Below are positions 5,595 through 9,822 of a DNA stretch of 64,000 nucleotides, piece after piece. The position numbers were made by a program, and so were the translations under genes. The DNA comes from Cytophagales bacterium. Lineage in GTDB: Bacteria > Bacteroidota > Bacteroidia > Cytophagales > Cyclobacteriaceae. The notes under the pieces were generated by a model that was not told where the DNA came from, made no database searches, and saw nothing but the letters and a program-made list of their open reading frames with translations. Each line of letters begins with the position of its first letter. The stretch's first letter is position 1. The stretch covers positions 62,001-126,000 of the forward strand of contig JANYHI010000046.1 in assembly GCA_025359125.1 (NCBI GenBank), written 5' to 3'.

Positions 5595-5633
5595 ACCTCA
5601 ACCCCTGCCCCCTTCTCCACAAGAGAAGGGGTT
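5595..5633. repeat. GC-rich palindromic dispersed repeat (copy R1)
   Basis: CCCCTTCTC (5609-5617) and GAGAAGGGG (5623-5631) form a 9-bp hairpin, preceded by CCTCAACCCCTG. The same architecture (CCTCACCCC lead, then a CCCCTCTC/GAGAGGGG hairpin) recurs three times inside leuS at 7259-7291, 7315-7349 and 7736-7773. Read on the minus strand, this copy encodes the last 11 residues and the stop codon of the phosphoesterase gene. Confidence 0.85.
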
Positions 5634-6134
5634 AAATTTTCCTCTTTTACCGAGTTCAATCACTTCCATGTTTTTGATTTCCTTGTGGAGGATTTCAAAA
5701 CGAATAATGGTTTTCATAGAATGAAACCCATGATTTCCGGCAGCACCCGGATTTAGGTAAAGCATATTTTGGTAGCGCTCATCTTTTTTAATTCTGAGAA
5801 TATGCGAGTGGCCGCAAATAAAAATATTTGGAATTTTTGATTGTAGTATCTTTTTGATTCTTGGGTTGTAGTTGGGAGGCGCTCCGCCAATGTGTGTCAT
5901 CCAAATGCTAAGACCTTCGCATTCAAACCATACATCTTCGGCAAACCTAAGTTGCATTTCTTTGTCATCGATGTTGCCATAAACAGCTCGAAGCGGTTTG
6001 AATTTTTCAAGTTGATCGGCCACTGATTTTTCTCCAATGTCGCCAGCGTGCCATACTTCATCACAATTTTTAAAGTAGTCGAATACTTTTGGATCGAGAT
6101 GGCTGTGCGTGTCAGAGAGGAGTCCTATTTTCAT
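5598..6134 (-). CDS. YfcE/MJ0936-type metallophosphoesterase
   Basis: The 178-residue protein carries all motifs of a small calcineurin-fold phosphoesterase: D8 and H10 (SDTHSH), D32 (HAGDIGE), N54 (YGNID), H81 and the GHSH motif with H109/H111. These residues hold a binuclear metal centre. Family members hydrolyse phosphodiesters in the cytoplasm; the physiological substrate is rarely known. The C-terminus is odd: the last 11 residues (from NPFSCG) and the stop codon come from a palindromic repeat rather than from family sequence, so the native protein probably ended a little earlier and was extended by repeat insertion. No partner gene on this strand is close enough for an operon. Confidence 0.9.
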   Translation of the reverse strand: MKIGLLSDTHSHLDPKVFDYFKNCDEVWHAGDIGEKSVADQLEKFKPLRAVYGNIDDKEMQLRFAEDVWFECEGLSIWMTHIGGAPPNYNPRIKKILQSKIPNIFICGHSHILRIKKDERYQNMLYLNPGAAGNHGFHSMKTIIRFEILHKEIKNMEVIELGKRGKFNPFSCGEGGRG

Positions 6135-6363: not shown

Positions 6364-9300
6364 ATGGCCGACTACAGCAAAGAAGAGATTAAGAACATTG
6401 AGCAGAAGTGGAGGGAAGAGTGGGAGAAGAGAGACGTTTATAAAGTCTCGAATGATTCTGCCAAACCAAAATATTATGTGTTGGATATGTTTCCGTATCC
6501 CTCTGGGGCGGGCTTGCATGTGGGCCATCCGCTTGGGTATATCGCGTCTGATATTGTAGCACGCTTTAAACGCATTAAAGGTTTTAATGTACTGCATCCA
6601 ATGGGCTTTGATGCATTCGGCTTGCCTGCAGAACAATATGCATTGGAACATGGAATACACCCCGCTGTTTCTACAGCCGATAACATCAAGAATTTTAAAA
6701 GACAATTAGGCAATATTGGTTTTAGTTATGACTGGAGCCGTGAGGTGCAAACGTGCGACCCAACTTATTATCGCTGGACGCAGTGGATATTCTTACAAAT
6801 TTTTGACAGCTGGTTTAATCGCAAAAAAGAAAAAGCAGAGCGCATTGCAGAGTTGATAAAAATTTTTGAAGCGGAGGGAAATAAGAATCATCCGATCACA
6901 AATGTAAAATTCCACATTTCACATTTTACTTCTGAAAATTGGAAAGCATTTGATGAAAAAACACAGCAAGAGATTTTGATGCAATACCGCTTGGCGTACT
7001 TGGCTAATACTGATGTGAATTGGTGCGAAGCATTAGGCACTGTGTTAGCGAATGATGAAGTGATTAATGGCTTAAGCTATCGCGGAGGATTTCCGGTGGT
7101 GAAAAAGCAAATGCGCCAATGGAGCTTGCGTATAACAGAATATGCAGAGCGCTTGCTGAAGGGGTTGGAGGAGATCGACTTTAGCGATTCGATGAAGGAA
7201 ATACAACGCAATTGGATTGGAAAAAGTGTGGGGGCGATAATTGAGTTTGGCATTTCCTCCCCCTCTCTTTTGGAGAGGGGTGAGGTCATTAAGGATCAAA
7301 TGCATCAGCATAAAAACCTCACCCCTAGCCCCTCTCCACAGGAGAGGGGAACGGCCTCGAACCAAGTACATGCTCAGGATTTTGTTTTTACAACAGATGC
7401 CTCCTCATGGCGTGCATTAAAAGATAATGCACGTGCGAATAGAAAAAATCCTACTGTAGCCGAAGAGAAATTGTGGGAGGCCATTAGAAATGAAAAGCTT
7501 GGAGTAAAGTTTAGAAGGCAACATGCCATCAGTCGTTTTATTGCCGATTTTGTTTGTATTGAAAAAAAATTTGTAGTTGAAGTAGATGGAGCTATTCATG
7601 AAACGCAAAGAAAGGAAGATCATGATCGAACTCAGATAATAAACGGAGAGGGCTTTAAAGTTATCCGATTTACGAATGAGGAAGTGATTAACTCACTCTC
7701 TATAGTATTGGATAAAATTAATAGCGAGCTCACTTCCCCCTCTCTTTTGGAGAGGGGGGTAGGGGGTGAGGTCATTACCGTGTTCACCACCCGCCCTGAT
7801 ACCATTTTCGGAGTCGACTTTATAGTATTGGCACCTGAGCATGAATTGGTAAAGAAGATTACAACTACTGCGCAACAGCCAGACATAGATAACTATTTAA
7901 AGTATGTAGAGAGCCGTTCGGAAGTAGACCGCATGGCAGAGGTGAAAAAAATTACCGGAGCATTTACTGGAGCTTATGCTGTAAATCCTTTTAGCGGAAA
8001 ACAAATGCCGATTTGGATTAGCGAATATGTTTTGGTAGGATATGGAACCGGAGCGATCATGGGGGTGCCATGTGGCGATGAGCGCGATCATAAATTTGCA
8101 AAGCATTTTAATTTGCCGATTACAAATATCATTGGCTCGCATTACAATGGCGAAGAGGCGAATGCAACGAAAGATGCCGTGTTAGAAAATTCAGATTTTT
8201 TGAATGGCGTTCTTATGCGCGAAGCAGGAAACATTGTAATAAAAAAATTAGAAGAAAAGGGTATTGGACAGCGGCAAGTAAATTACAAAATGCGCGATGC
8301 GGGTTGGAGCCGCCAACGTTATTGGGGAGAACCCTTTCCGGTTGTATTTAAAAACGATATGCCCTATGCTATGAAAGAGAGTGAGCTTCCTTTGGAGTTG
8401 CCACCTTCTAATAATTTTAAACCATCGGGAAATGGCGAAGGGCCGCTCGCTAACTTAACCGAGTGGATTAATTTTGCTCCCAACGTAAGGCGCGATAGCA
8501 ACACCATGCCTACGCATGCCGGGGCAGCCTGGTATTTTTTGCGCTACATGGATCCAAAAAATACAAACGCTTTCGCGGATAAGAAGGCGTTGGACTATTG
8601 GGGACAAGTAGATGTGTATGTGGGTGGATCGGAACATGCCGTGGCGCACTTGCTGTACTCACGCCTGTGGACGAAAATTTTACATGACTTAGGTTATTTA
8701 AATTTTGATGAACCATTTAAGAAGTTGATTAATCAGGGGAAGATTACGGGAGAATCTAAATTCATTCACAGGTTGCCCTTAGCATACACTGGTGGCATAG
8801 CATCAACAAATCAAAAAATACCTGAAGTTTTTATTTCAAAATCTATTCTTGATAAATTTCAAAAGAATGAATTGACTAGTTCAGACTTCATGAACATTAA
8901 AGTGGACTTAATAAATCAATTCAATTATTTTTATTACAGTAAAGATAGTTCGGGCTTTCATTTACCTTCATTCGAATTAGCCGATCTTCATAATGCTCAT
9001 GCTCTGCATACCGATATCTCATTAGTAGAAAATGACGAGCTTGACATAGATAAATTCAGATTGCGGAAGCCAGATTATGAAAAAGCAATTTTACTTAGGG
9101 ATAAGGACAATAAATTTACCTGCAGTTCGGCCATTGAAAAAATGAGTAAGTCTTATTTTAATGTGGTTAACCCTGATTCTGTAATTGATAATTATGGTGC
9201 TGATACACTGCGCATGTACGAAATGTTTTTAGGTCCGTTGGAGGCATCTAAACCCTGGAGCACCCAAGGCATTGATGGGGTGTTCAAATTTTTAAGACGT

Positions 9301-9822
9301 GTTTGGAATTTAATTCACGACCAAGCAGGTAATCTTAAAATAGGCGATGCCGAGCCAACACGCGAAGAATTAAAAGTGCTTCATAAGACACTAAAAAAAG
9401 TAGAGCAAGACATGGAGAGTTTCTCATTCAACACTTCAGTCAGTGAGTTTATGATTTGCGTGAATGAACTAGGTTCACTAAAGTGCAACAAGCGCGCGAT
9501 TGTAGAGCCTTTGATAATTGCATTGTCGCCTTTTGCACCACACATTGCCGAAGAGTTGTGGGAGAAACTTGGTCACAAAGAAAGTATTTTGAATGCTACC
9601 TATCCGCAATACGATGATCAGTATCTAACGGAAAGCTCTTTCAAGTATCCTATTTCTATAAATGGCAAAGTGCGCGCGCAAATGAACTTTGCGTTAGATA
9701 TGCCGAAAGAAGATATTGAGAAAGTAGTTCTTGCATCTGAGCTGGTACAAAAATGGAGCGAGGGCAAGCCACCTAAAAAAATTATTGTGGTGCCCGGAAG
9801 AATTGTGAATGTAGTGCTCTAA
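6364..9822 (+). CDS. leuS: Leucyl-tRNA synthetase carrying an in-frame DUF559 nuclease insertion
   Basis: This is a class I synthetase that charges tRNA-Leu. HVGH is at residues 52-55 and KMSKS at 926-930. The CP1 editing domain has VFTTRPDT from residue 473, and the anticodon-binding domain and C-terminal ubiquitin-like end are present. ATG 6364 gives the normal start MADYSKEEI; an upstream TTG start would run through the promoter box. The protein is 1152 residues, against roughly 920-960 for relatives in this phylum. Most of the excess is residues 297-470, just before VFTTRPDT: repeat-encoded peptides (SPSLLERG, TPSPSPQERG, SPSLLERGVGGEV) surround a DUF559 domain at about 346-455. A second, smaller extension of about 50 residues precedes KMSKS (residues 800-880). 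The frame is intact throughout, so one polypeptide is expected; whether the insert is tolerated or removed is unknown. Confidence 0.93.
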   Translation: MADYSKEEIKNIEQKWREEWEKRDVYKVSNDSAKPKYYVLDMFPYPSGAGLHVGHPLGYIASDIVARFKRIKGFNVLHPMGFDAFGLPAEQYALEHGIHPAVSTADNIKNFKRQLGNIGFSYDWSREVQTCDPTYYRWTQWIFLQIFDSWFNRKKEKAERIAELIKIFEAEGNKNHPITNVKFHISHFTSENWKAFDEKTQQEILMQYRLAYLANTDVNWCEALGTVLANDEVINGLSYRGGFPVVKKQMRQWSLRITEYAERLLKGLEEIDFSDSMKEIQRNWIGKSVGAIIEFGISSPSLLERGEVIKDQMHQHKNLTPSPSPQERGTASNQVHAQDFVFTTDASSWRALKDNARANRKNPTVAEEKLWEAIRNEKLGVKFRRQHAISRFIADFVCIEKKFVVEVDGAIHETQRKEDHDRTQIINGEGFKVIRFTNEEVINSLSIVLDKINSELTSPSLLERGVGGEVITVFTTRPDTIFGVDFIVLAPEHELVKKITTTAQQPDIDNYLKYVESRSEVDRMAEVKKITGAFTGAYAVNPFSGKQMPIWISEYVLVGYGTGAIMGVPCGDERDHKFAKHFNLPITNIIGSHYNGEEANATKDAVLENSDFLNGVLMREAGNIVIKKLEEKGIGQRQVNYKMRDAGWSRQRYWGEPFPVVFKNDMPYAMKESELPLELPPSNNFKPSGNGEGPLANLTEWINFAPNVRRDSNTMPTHAGAAWYFLRYMDPKNTNAFADKKALDYWGQVDVYVGGSEHAVAHLLYSRLWTKILHDLGYLNFDEPFKKLINQGKITGESKFIHRLPLAYTGGIASTNQKIPEVFISKSILDKFQKNELTSSDFMNIKVDLINQFNYFYYSKDSSGFHLPSFELADLHNAHALHTDISLVENDELDIDKFRLRKPDYEKAILLRDKDNKFTCSSAIEKMSKSYFNVVNPDSVIDNYGADTLRMYEMFLGPLEASKPWSTQGIDGVFKFLRRVWNLIHDQAGNLKIGDAEPTREELKVLHKTLKKVEQDMESFSFNTSVSEFMICVNELGSLKCNKRAIVEPLIIALSPFAPHIAEELWEKLGHKESILNATYPQYDDQYLTESSFKYPISINGKVRAQMNFALDMPKEDIEKVVLASELVQKWSEGKPPKKIIVVPGRIVNVVL
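7259..7291 (+). repeat. Palindromic repeat inside leuS (copy R2)
   Basis: CCCCTCTC (7260-7267) and GAGAGGGG (7273-7280) form a hairpin, followed by TGAGGTCATTA. That 11-base tail is repeated exactly at 7767-7777 after copy R4, 486 bases (162 codons) downstream. It is read in frame as SPSLLERGEVI. Confidence 0.85.
7315..7773 (+). mobile_element. Putative repeat-flanked DUF559 nuclease unit inserted in leuS
   Basis: The unit is bounded by inverted copies of one repeat. The left end (R3, 7315-7349) reads AACCTCACCCCTAG then CCCCTCTCC-aca-GGAGAGGGG. The right end (R4, 7736-7773), read on the other strand, begins GACCTCACCCCCTA and continues into the same hairpin; the two ends agree at about 22 of 25 positions. 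Between them lie about 110 codons of a DUF559 domain (leuS residues 346-455). It has KLWEAIRNEKLGVKFRRQH, then D395 in IADF, E406 and D408 in VVEVDG, H412, and KVIRFTNEEV. These are the conserved acidic residues of this PD-(D/E)XK, Vsr-like family. The domain has no start or stop codon of its own and is read through in the leuS frame. Confidence 0.7.
7736..7777 (+). repeat. Palindromic repeat inside leuS (copy R4) with duplicated flank
   Basis: CCCCCTCTC (7736-7744) pairs with GAGAGGGGG (7750-7758), followed by GTAGGGGG and TGAGGTCATTA (7767-7777). It is a direct repeat of R2 and an inverted repeat of R3. The final ATTA runs into native LeuRS sequence (ITVFTTRPDT). Confidence 0.85.

Follow-up and report, generated by a model that had tools for sequence, protein, structure and literature searches.

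Whether the nuclease domain that lies in frame inside the leucyl-tRNA synthetase (LeuRS) gene, leuS, of this Cytophagales bacterium belongs to a mobile unit, or is an old fused domain of the synthetase, is the question raised by this locus. The original prediction, made on the window (the whole stretch of 64,000 nucleotides that was analyzed), was that the palindromic repeats at the two ends of the insert are transposing ends and the enclosed DUF559 nuclease the mobility factor. From the evidence below, we regard it as fairly probable that the unit is a small mobile element, in which a DUF559 nuclease of about 105 residues lies between inverted palindromic ends and is maintained without splicing in permissive loops. 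The evidence that the unit is mobile is good, and the nuclease is its probable mobility enzyme.

Table 1. Features of the leuS region, in positions of the window.
Feature	Position	Strand	Details
leuS (leucyl-tRNA synthetase, 1152 aa)	6364-9822	+	Insert located in CP1 editing domain; Pfam and reading of the open frame
Palindrome-bounded unit in leuS	7315-7773	+	459 bp = 153 codons, a multiple of three, in frame
DUF559 (PF04480) nuclease domain	7417-7731	+	LeuRS residues 352-456; Pfam E 2e-33
DUF559 core, codon starts	D395 7546 (7546-7548), E406 7579 (7579-7581), D408 7585 (7585-7587), H412 7597	+	
Left end of unit	7317-7349	+	CCTCACCCC lead 7317-7325; hairpin 7329-7349 = CCCCTCTC-CACAG-GAGAGGGG
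Right end of unit	7736-7771	-	Inverted hairpin 7736-7758; GGGGTGAGG lead 7763-7771
Third palindrome, just upstream of unit	7260-7285	-	Orientation that of the right end
15-bp direct repeat GGGGTGAGGTCATTA	7277-7291 and 7763-7777	+	Spacing 486 bp = 162 codons
Fourth hairpin of window	5609-5631	+	CCCCTTCTCCACAAGAGAAGGGG with CCTCAACCCC lead, over the last codons of minus-strand gene 5598-6134

The gene was read as a single open frame with zero internal stops. DUF559 scored 115 bits in LeuRS against a Pfam gathering cut-off of 20.6, which places it in the family, and the Pfam match of the editing domain begins after it, at residue 469. The expectation of a stop-free, repeat-bounded unit in frame with leuS was borne out, at a length of 459 bp where 458 bp had been given; the acidic residues D395, E406 and D408, which had been called intact, are, like H412, at invariant positions in an alignment of 57 DUF559 sequences. 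Inverted palindromes were present at the two ends as described, but the stretch holds three palindromes and not two. The third shares the direct repeat GGGGTGAGGTCATTA with the right end, and the spacing of the two copies makes an in-frame deletion of 162 codons by recombination possible.

When as many as 3 mismatches were allowed, the hairpin pattern gave 5 matches in the window (one a shifted overlap) against 0.04 expected, and a stem-based scan of the 64 kb gave four hairpins, three of them in the leuS stretch; the lead by itself is no rarity (6 matches with at most 1 mismatch, 4.3 expected). In the whole genome (3.68 Mb) the leuS domain was the sole DUF559 match, and a second copy of the window's own unit was absent. 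The palindrome core occurred at eight places, three of them in leuS, and the reversed control at none. Solo palindromes lie in frame at two of the five places outside leuS, in gcvP and tsaB (both named by reading), and that of gcvP sits in a linker variable among nine relatives. Separately, the related hairpin with the CCTCAACCCC lead spans the end (5598-5631) of the upstream minus-strand gene, which is phosphoesterase-like by reading; as the last codons of the gene are covered, the C-terminal residues of its product apparently derive from the repeat.

No Hint/intein splicing family was found in the whole of LeuRS (Pfam matches up to E 0.001) and no intron family in 7100-7950 (Rfam matches up to E 1, none at its gathering score). 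Zero families of the PADLOC defence models were matched (up to E 0.01), and PHROG phage families gave weak matches only, to families without known function. Because no intein domain, known intron RNA or defence model was found, the DUF559 domain is probably kept in mature LeuRS, and the cell would contain a full-length, unspliced protein.

An AlphaFold2 model of the CP1 segment was built from 42 rows (residues in segment numbering). The nuclease, residues 123-234, was modelled confidently (means of ten residues 67-96, mostly >85), residues 78-121 and 238-243 formed low-confidence linkers (<50), and the flanking strands were at 68-75 and 247-252. The best PDB matches of the model were LeuRS editing domains (4k47, E 2.6e-15), and in it the unit is predicted to hang from the CP1 editing domain between two of its strands. 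Modelled alone, the DUF559 domain reached pLDDT 87 and pTM 0.80, with fold matches to 3hrl (E 3e-7), to the catalytic domain of I-Bth0305I (3r3p, E 2.6e-4) and, weakly, to Vsr (E 0.04); PDB sequence matches were 3hrl (E 2.4e-27) and 3r3p (E 3.4e-4). By sequence and predicted fold, DUF559 is related to the homing endonuclease I-Bth0305I and, by fold, to Vsr, and it is on this kinship that a homing role would rest.

Relatives were compared in a genus set of 62 genomes, in 52 of which leuS was readable (L160 was unreadable, the other nine too fragmentary). DUF559 matches were present in 42 of the 62, three of them weak and partial (G011, G016, G021). At the first leuS site a nuclease was present in 21 of the 52 readable genes, palindrome remnants only in three (G009, G017, G052), and neither in 28, so that occupied and empty alleles, which had been proposed as a sign of mobility, were both found among relatives, together with palindrome-only ones. 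The three palindrome-only alleles, like the gcvP and tsaB palindromes of the window's own genome, are in-frame palindrome insertions of the kind that defines the Rickettsia elements. The palindromes of G009 also stand in regular arrays, with 63-bp steps (C71, C302) or with steps of about 125 bp and changing orientation (C128).

A LeuRS tree was built from 50 rows with the insert left out of the alignment (L109 and L119 omitted as short). Insert versus none at the first site required 14 changes on this tree; the 'empty' label clustered no better than when shuffled (138 of 500 shuffles as low), and well supported branches forced at least 13 changes of it. Sister genomes frequently differed in insert state. 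Four of the 'empty' alleles (L132, L133, L134, L144) carry an AT-rich repeat (AATTCAAAATTC and similar) at the same beta turn, a second and unrelated repeat. Its presence there in several empty alleles indicates that the turn tolerates inserts, and site tolerance is part of the answer.

In G052 the left and right ends stand at the first leuS site without an intervening nuclease, a nuclease-free scar from which it follows that loss of the nuclease happens; the nuclease of this genome (L128) lies elsewhere in leuS, at a second site that precedes the TMPGWAGSSWY stretch. This copy matched L126, at the first site of G050, end to end (79% over 465 bp), both leads included, and the sequence beyond the match differed. 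The pair shows one unit, complete with its ends, at a different leuS site in each of two genomes, which supports the mobile reading. The second site was also occupied in L212, L221 and L260, of which L221 was confirmed as LeuS by family scan.

Likeness confined to the unit was seen in this pair and in two stand-alone pairs. L332 and L333, on two contigs of one genome, were 86% identical over 490 bp between unrelated flanks, and their likeness begins some 20 bases, rich in AT, before the left hairpin and continues up to the final bases of the right hairpin, with the tag inside the hairpin and not outside. L292 and L293, from two genomes, were 90% identical over 422 bp and diverge at or beside the palindromes. 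None of the 47 pairs with >78% DNA identity over 200 bp linked two different host genes, and no target-site duplication was established. In the nuclease tree the 29 host labels needed 40 changes (minimum 28) with L128 labelled as second-site, and 39 with it as an ordinary leuS row, which is how it stood in this tree and in the AU test; support in the tree was low because only 108 columns were available.

Nuclease and synthetase were incongruent in several comparisons. L110 and L129 have LeuRS segments 96% identical and nucleases 50% identical. The nuclease of L233 is 70% identical to one genus type at a LeuRS identity of 62-64%, and that of its nearest LeuRS relative only 47%. For L230 and L216 (Maribacter) the nucleases are 59% and LeuRS 44% identical; the L230 domain is at the leuS site of a contig assigned to Paceibacterota, outside Bacteroidota, possibly by a binning error. 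In both leuS nuclease types, taken separately, insert divergence followed LeuRS divergence (Mantel r 0.49 and 0.85), and over 42 leuS genes the distances correlated at 0.58. Synonymous sites were saturated within both types, and no pair pointing to recent transfer between genus members was found by synonymous divergence, in a comparison that covered 20 of the 22 leuS nucleases of the genus (all but L109 and L128). In the same 20, median dN/dS was 0.10 and 0.066 for the nuclease vs 0.037 and 0.042 for LeuRS, from which the DUF559 domain is taken to be constrained by purifying selection. Two independent leuS insertions in the genus, expected from a first tree, were tried and set aside: a single clade for all genus leuS nucleases was not rejected (p-AU 0.79), and the incongruence of LeuRS and insert and the second-site unit are relied on instead.

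These results bear directly on the possibility of an ancient fusion that was passed down together with leuS, was retained because it served the host and disappeared on many occasions, with the repeats as linkers. The original prediction had proposed that the same insert in all relatives, diverging as LeuRS does, would argue for such a fusion; divergence does match LeuRS within types, but the same insert is not in all relatives. Purifying selection, the unrejected single genus origin and the loss seen in the G052 scar all suit a fusion, which nonetheless seems very improbable to us given a leuS state that is unclustered on the tree, near-identical LeuRS proteins with distant nucleases and the reverse, and the same kind of unit at the second leuS site and in many other genes. 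The window's copy is best seen as an old, long-settled element under purifying selection, with frequent loss and some replacement, because its divergence follows LeuRS, synonymous sites are saturated and one clade was not rejected.

About two dozen other Bacteroidota proteins were found to carry similar units in frame, either internally or at a terminus, so that the proposed ability to live inside coding sequence was upheld in many unrelated genes across the phylum. In-frame DUF559 copies came from 62 genus places (of 68; six weak partial ones were dropped), 80 named loci (eight of them duplicates of genus loci) and 50 from a phylum sample of 392 genomes. In that sample DUF559 was present in 222 genomes, and about a third of the domains, among the matches listed, were in frames >250 codons. 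Of the 80 named loci, the first leuS site accounted for 37 by the TTRPD motif and six by reading, four were stand-alone and 33 were elsewhere. In the genus, DUF559 shares open frames with IleS, HsdM, HsdR and HsdS (the last identified by reading alone), and is placed C-terminally in HutG and N-terminally in HutF, QueG and a MobA-like protein; for the N-terminal fusions, an open frame does not prove translation. An NCBIfam/Pfam scan of 30 open frames supported as hosts IcmF, UvrA, RecG, acetyl-CoA synthetase, MetG, MutS, MetH, RecJ, AroC, WecB, IleS, the LeuS second site, UvrC, HsdR, QueG, HutF, HutG, the MobA-like protein, HemF, a PurL-type amidotransferase end, a UvrD-like helicase and restriction-modification proteins; HsdM, a RecB-like helicase and an IGHMBP2-like helicase fell below curated cut-offs.

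Two loci from these scans were unusual. At L219, on a contig assigned to Nomurabacteria, again outside Bacteroidota (possibly a binning error), DUF559 is in a long open frame with a methyltransferase domain adjoining and hairpins on both sides. A single contig carries the two identical DUF559 domains of L329, separated by 3.25 kb, and neither has a hairpin within 250 bp. An assembly error or a chance reading frame would be suited by the large share of metagenome assemblies among the genomes; this explanation is refuted for practical purposes by the occurrence of the insert at the same site in 21 genus genomes, several of them near complete, and in cultured strains (e.g. Cellulophaga baltica, Gillisia mitskevichiae), and by the constraint on its sequence.

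Hairpins (stems of seven or more) were counted near the domain (within 250 bp) and far from it (the rest of the same loci); L086, L088, L093 and the eight duplicates were omitted from the end counts and from the nuclease tree. A near hairpin was present at 155 of 181 distinct DUF559 copies (left 119, right 133, both 97) and absent at 26, and hairpin density near DUF559 was 9-41 times background. Densities per kb, near vs far, were 3.57 vs 0.087 at the 62 genus places (hairpins on both sides 32, one side 25, none 5), 3.31 vs 0.12 at the 80 named loci (45, 25 and 10), 4.41 vs 0.31 in the best 30 of the phylum sample (20, 4 and 6) and 2.9 vs 0.31 at 20 stand-alone copies of that sample (9, 4 and 7). 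Among the 119 left and 133 right ends, a CCTCACC lead faced outward in 34 and 38 respectively, and same-strand leads that faced inward numbered 1 and 0; paired ends were more alike inverted in 49 cases and direct in 23, with 25 ties. Inverted ends of this kind, looked for around other DUF559 copies, were thus found, and the palindrome pair behaves as the ends of the unit. Palindrome type differed by nuclease subfamily. The C6-TNNNA-G6 palindrome was present only in the 6 of 62 genus genomes with a queG-type nuclease, and it is hardly dispersed there (9 of 10 copies adjoin a queG-type gene); this nuclease and its palindromes are probably one inherited locus.

Palindromes of the CCTCTC type, the element's own ends included, had a median of 12 per genome in the 39 nuclease genomes and of 1 (range 0-5) in the 23 others, which have no DUF559 or weak matches only (p 4e-8, kinship ignored). 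Independent pairs were then compared, with figures given as means over 200 pairings. With the cutoff set at four palindromes, the direction was the same in 7.7 of 10 pairs and opposite in 0.0 (median p 0.008), and 8.7 of 10 (p 0.004) without three genomes of other subfamilies, an exclusion chosen after the counts were seen. At a cutoff of 6, p was 0.03 (all) and 0.016 (without the three genomes); at a cutoff of 10 significance was lost (type-specific contrast, p 0.06). Solo palindromes, and a palindrome number that tracks nuclease presence, lend support to the mobile-unit reading.

The palindromes could instead be moved by another enzyme, with the DUF559 gene as cargo caught between two of them. 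Solo palindromes inside genes without a nuclease would fit this, as would the few palindromes kept by nuclease-free genomes. Y1 transposases, the obvious alternative mover, were examined as a control: 30 Y1 transposase loci of the genus, covering 94 kb, contained none of these palindromes and had hairpins of other kinds or no hairpins. Y1 transposases as palindrome movers were therefore not supported, and a weak correlation of palindrome number with Y1 transposase number (rho 0.36) remains. That the nuclease is a mere passenger is improbable in our view, as nuclease presence predicts palindrome number in independent contrasts, end type tracks nuclease subfamily and no other gene was seen inside the units. 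Four of the Y1 loci (L174, L176, L180, L183) have a hairpin family of their own (CCGTCCC...GGGACGG and similar), a separate REP-type system.

Homing proper was also weighed, in which each nuclease lineage recognizes one unoccupied site in a conserved gene and spreads by cutting and repair, the palindromes being mere stop-free linkers. The same sites are indeed used in different taxa (the first leuS site in 60 of 181 tree rows, icmF in 7, metH in 6, recG in 5), distant nucleases occupy the same leuS site, DUF559 is akin to an EDxHD homing endonuclease, and several units adjoin conserved motifs, among them TTRPDT and a Walker A motif. Taken alone, homing leaves unexplained the dispersed solo palindromes and their correlation with the nuclease, the subfamily-specific ends, the stand-alone copies with palindromes and the like units at unrelated sites, and we consider it unlikely as the full account.

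Under the reading that we prefer, a mobile element with palindromic ends, the palindromes would be read in frame and serve as flexible, stop-free linkers, through which the element would be tolerated unspliced in loops of conserved proteins. DUF559, akin to I-Bth0305I and Vsr, would most probably make the initiating cut, either at the unoccupied site or at the palindromic ends, and the unit would then be copied in by repair. End fragments or deletion forms, whether mobilized in trans or remaining after loss, would account for the solo palindromes. The original prediction is supported in part, DUF559 as the mover and a host gene that it makes self-maintaining being putative. The recurrent sites favour recognition of the empty site, as in homing, and the dispersed, subfamily-linked palindromes favour recognition of the ends, as in REP systems.

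Several known systems resemble parts of this element. Rickettsia palindromic elements are palindromes inserted in frame in protein genes, and to our knowledge no nuclease accompanies them. The present palindromes, likened to them by description, share the in-frame placement and differ in phylum and in a full form that carries a nuclease. In REPtrons (RAYT) the gene of a cutting enzyme is flanked by inverted, tagged palindromes and short palindromes are dispersed in the genome, a layout described in the accessible part of PMC3733652. An inverted palindrome pair around the gene and dispersed copies are found here too, other than in the queG-type subfamily, and the original comparison with REP/RAYT is apt as an analogy. 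The REPtron enzyme is a Y1/HUH transposase, whereas here it is DUF559, with no Y1_Tnp in the protein by Pfam; the REPtron tag is GTAG or CGTC and here CCTCACCCC-like; and DUF559 units, unlike REPtrons, are placed in frame inside conserved genes.

Of the EDxHD and Vsr-like nucleases, I-Bth0305I resembles DUF559 in sequence and fold and Vsr in fold, but this DUF559 is not in a self-splicing intron or intein, has about 105 residues, and is without the long DNA-binding extensions that the accessible text of PMC3943268 gives for EDxHD homing endonucleases. Inteins, too, place a nuclease in frame at conserved sites of essential genes; here a splicing domain is missing by Pfam and low-confidence linkers stand in its place. 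Group I/II introns differ in that the leuS frame is open throughout, with no known intron RNA in 7100-7950. The term DUF559 is absent from the accessible part of a paper on PD-(D/E)XK nucleases (PMC1913061). No description of palindrome-ended DUF559 units was found in a literature search to which subscription papers and preprints were external, and none of the papers naming DUF559 appears, judged by listing, to treat repeats or insertions. The palindrome-ended DUF559 unit, little noticed so far, is without a defining feature of the REPtrons, inteins and introns that resemble it, while the layout is that of a REPtron inside genes.

The chances seem to us evenly balanced that these units form a distinct, splicing-free class of element, common in Bacteroidota, in which permissive loops of essential proteins are invaded by a compact nuclease of EDxHD type with palindromic ends, which then persists as a constrained extra domain and drives a family of small palindromes genome-wide in trans. 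If the mobile reading is true, it would provide a candidate mobility enzyme for in-frame palindromic insertions and a second system of REP type that relies on an unrelated nuclease. It would account for the DUF559 domains and 'SPSPxERG'-like linkers in LeuRS, MetH, RecG, MutS and other proteins, and would mean that selfish nucleases are able to settle in essential proteins without splicing, their positions forming a catalogue of naturally tolerated protein insertion sites.
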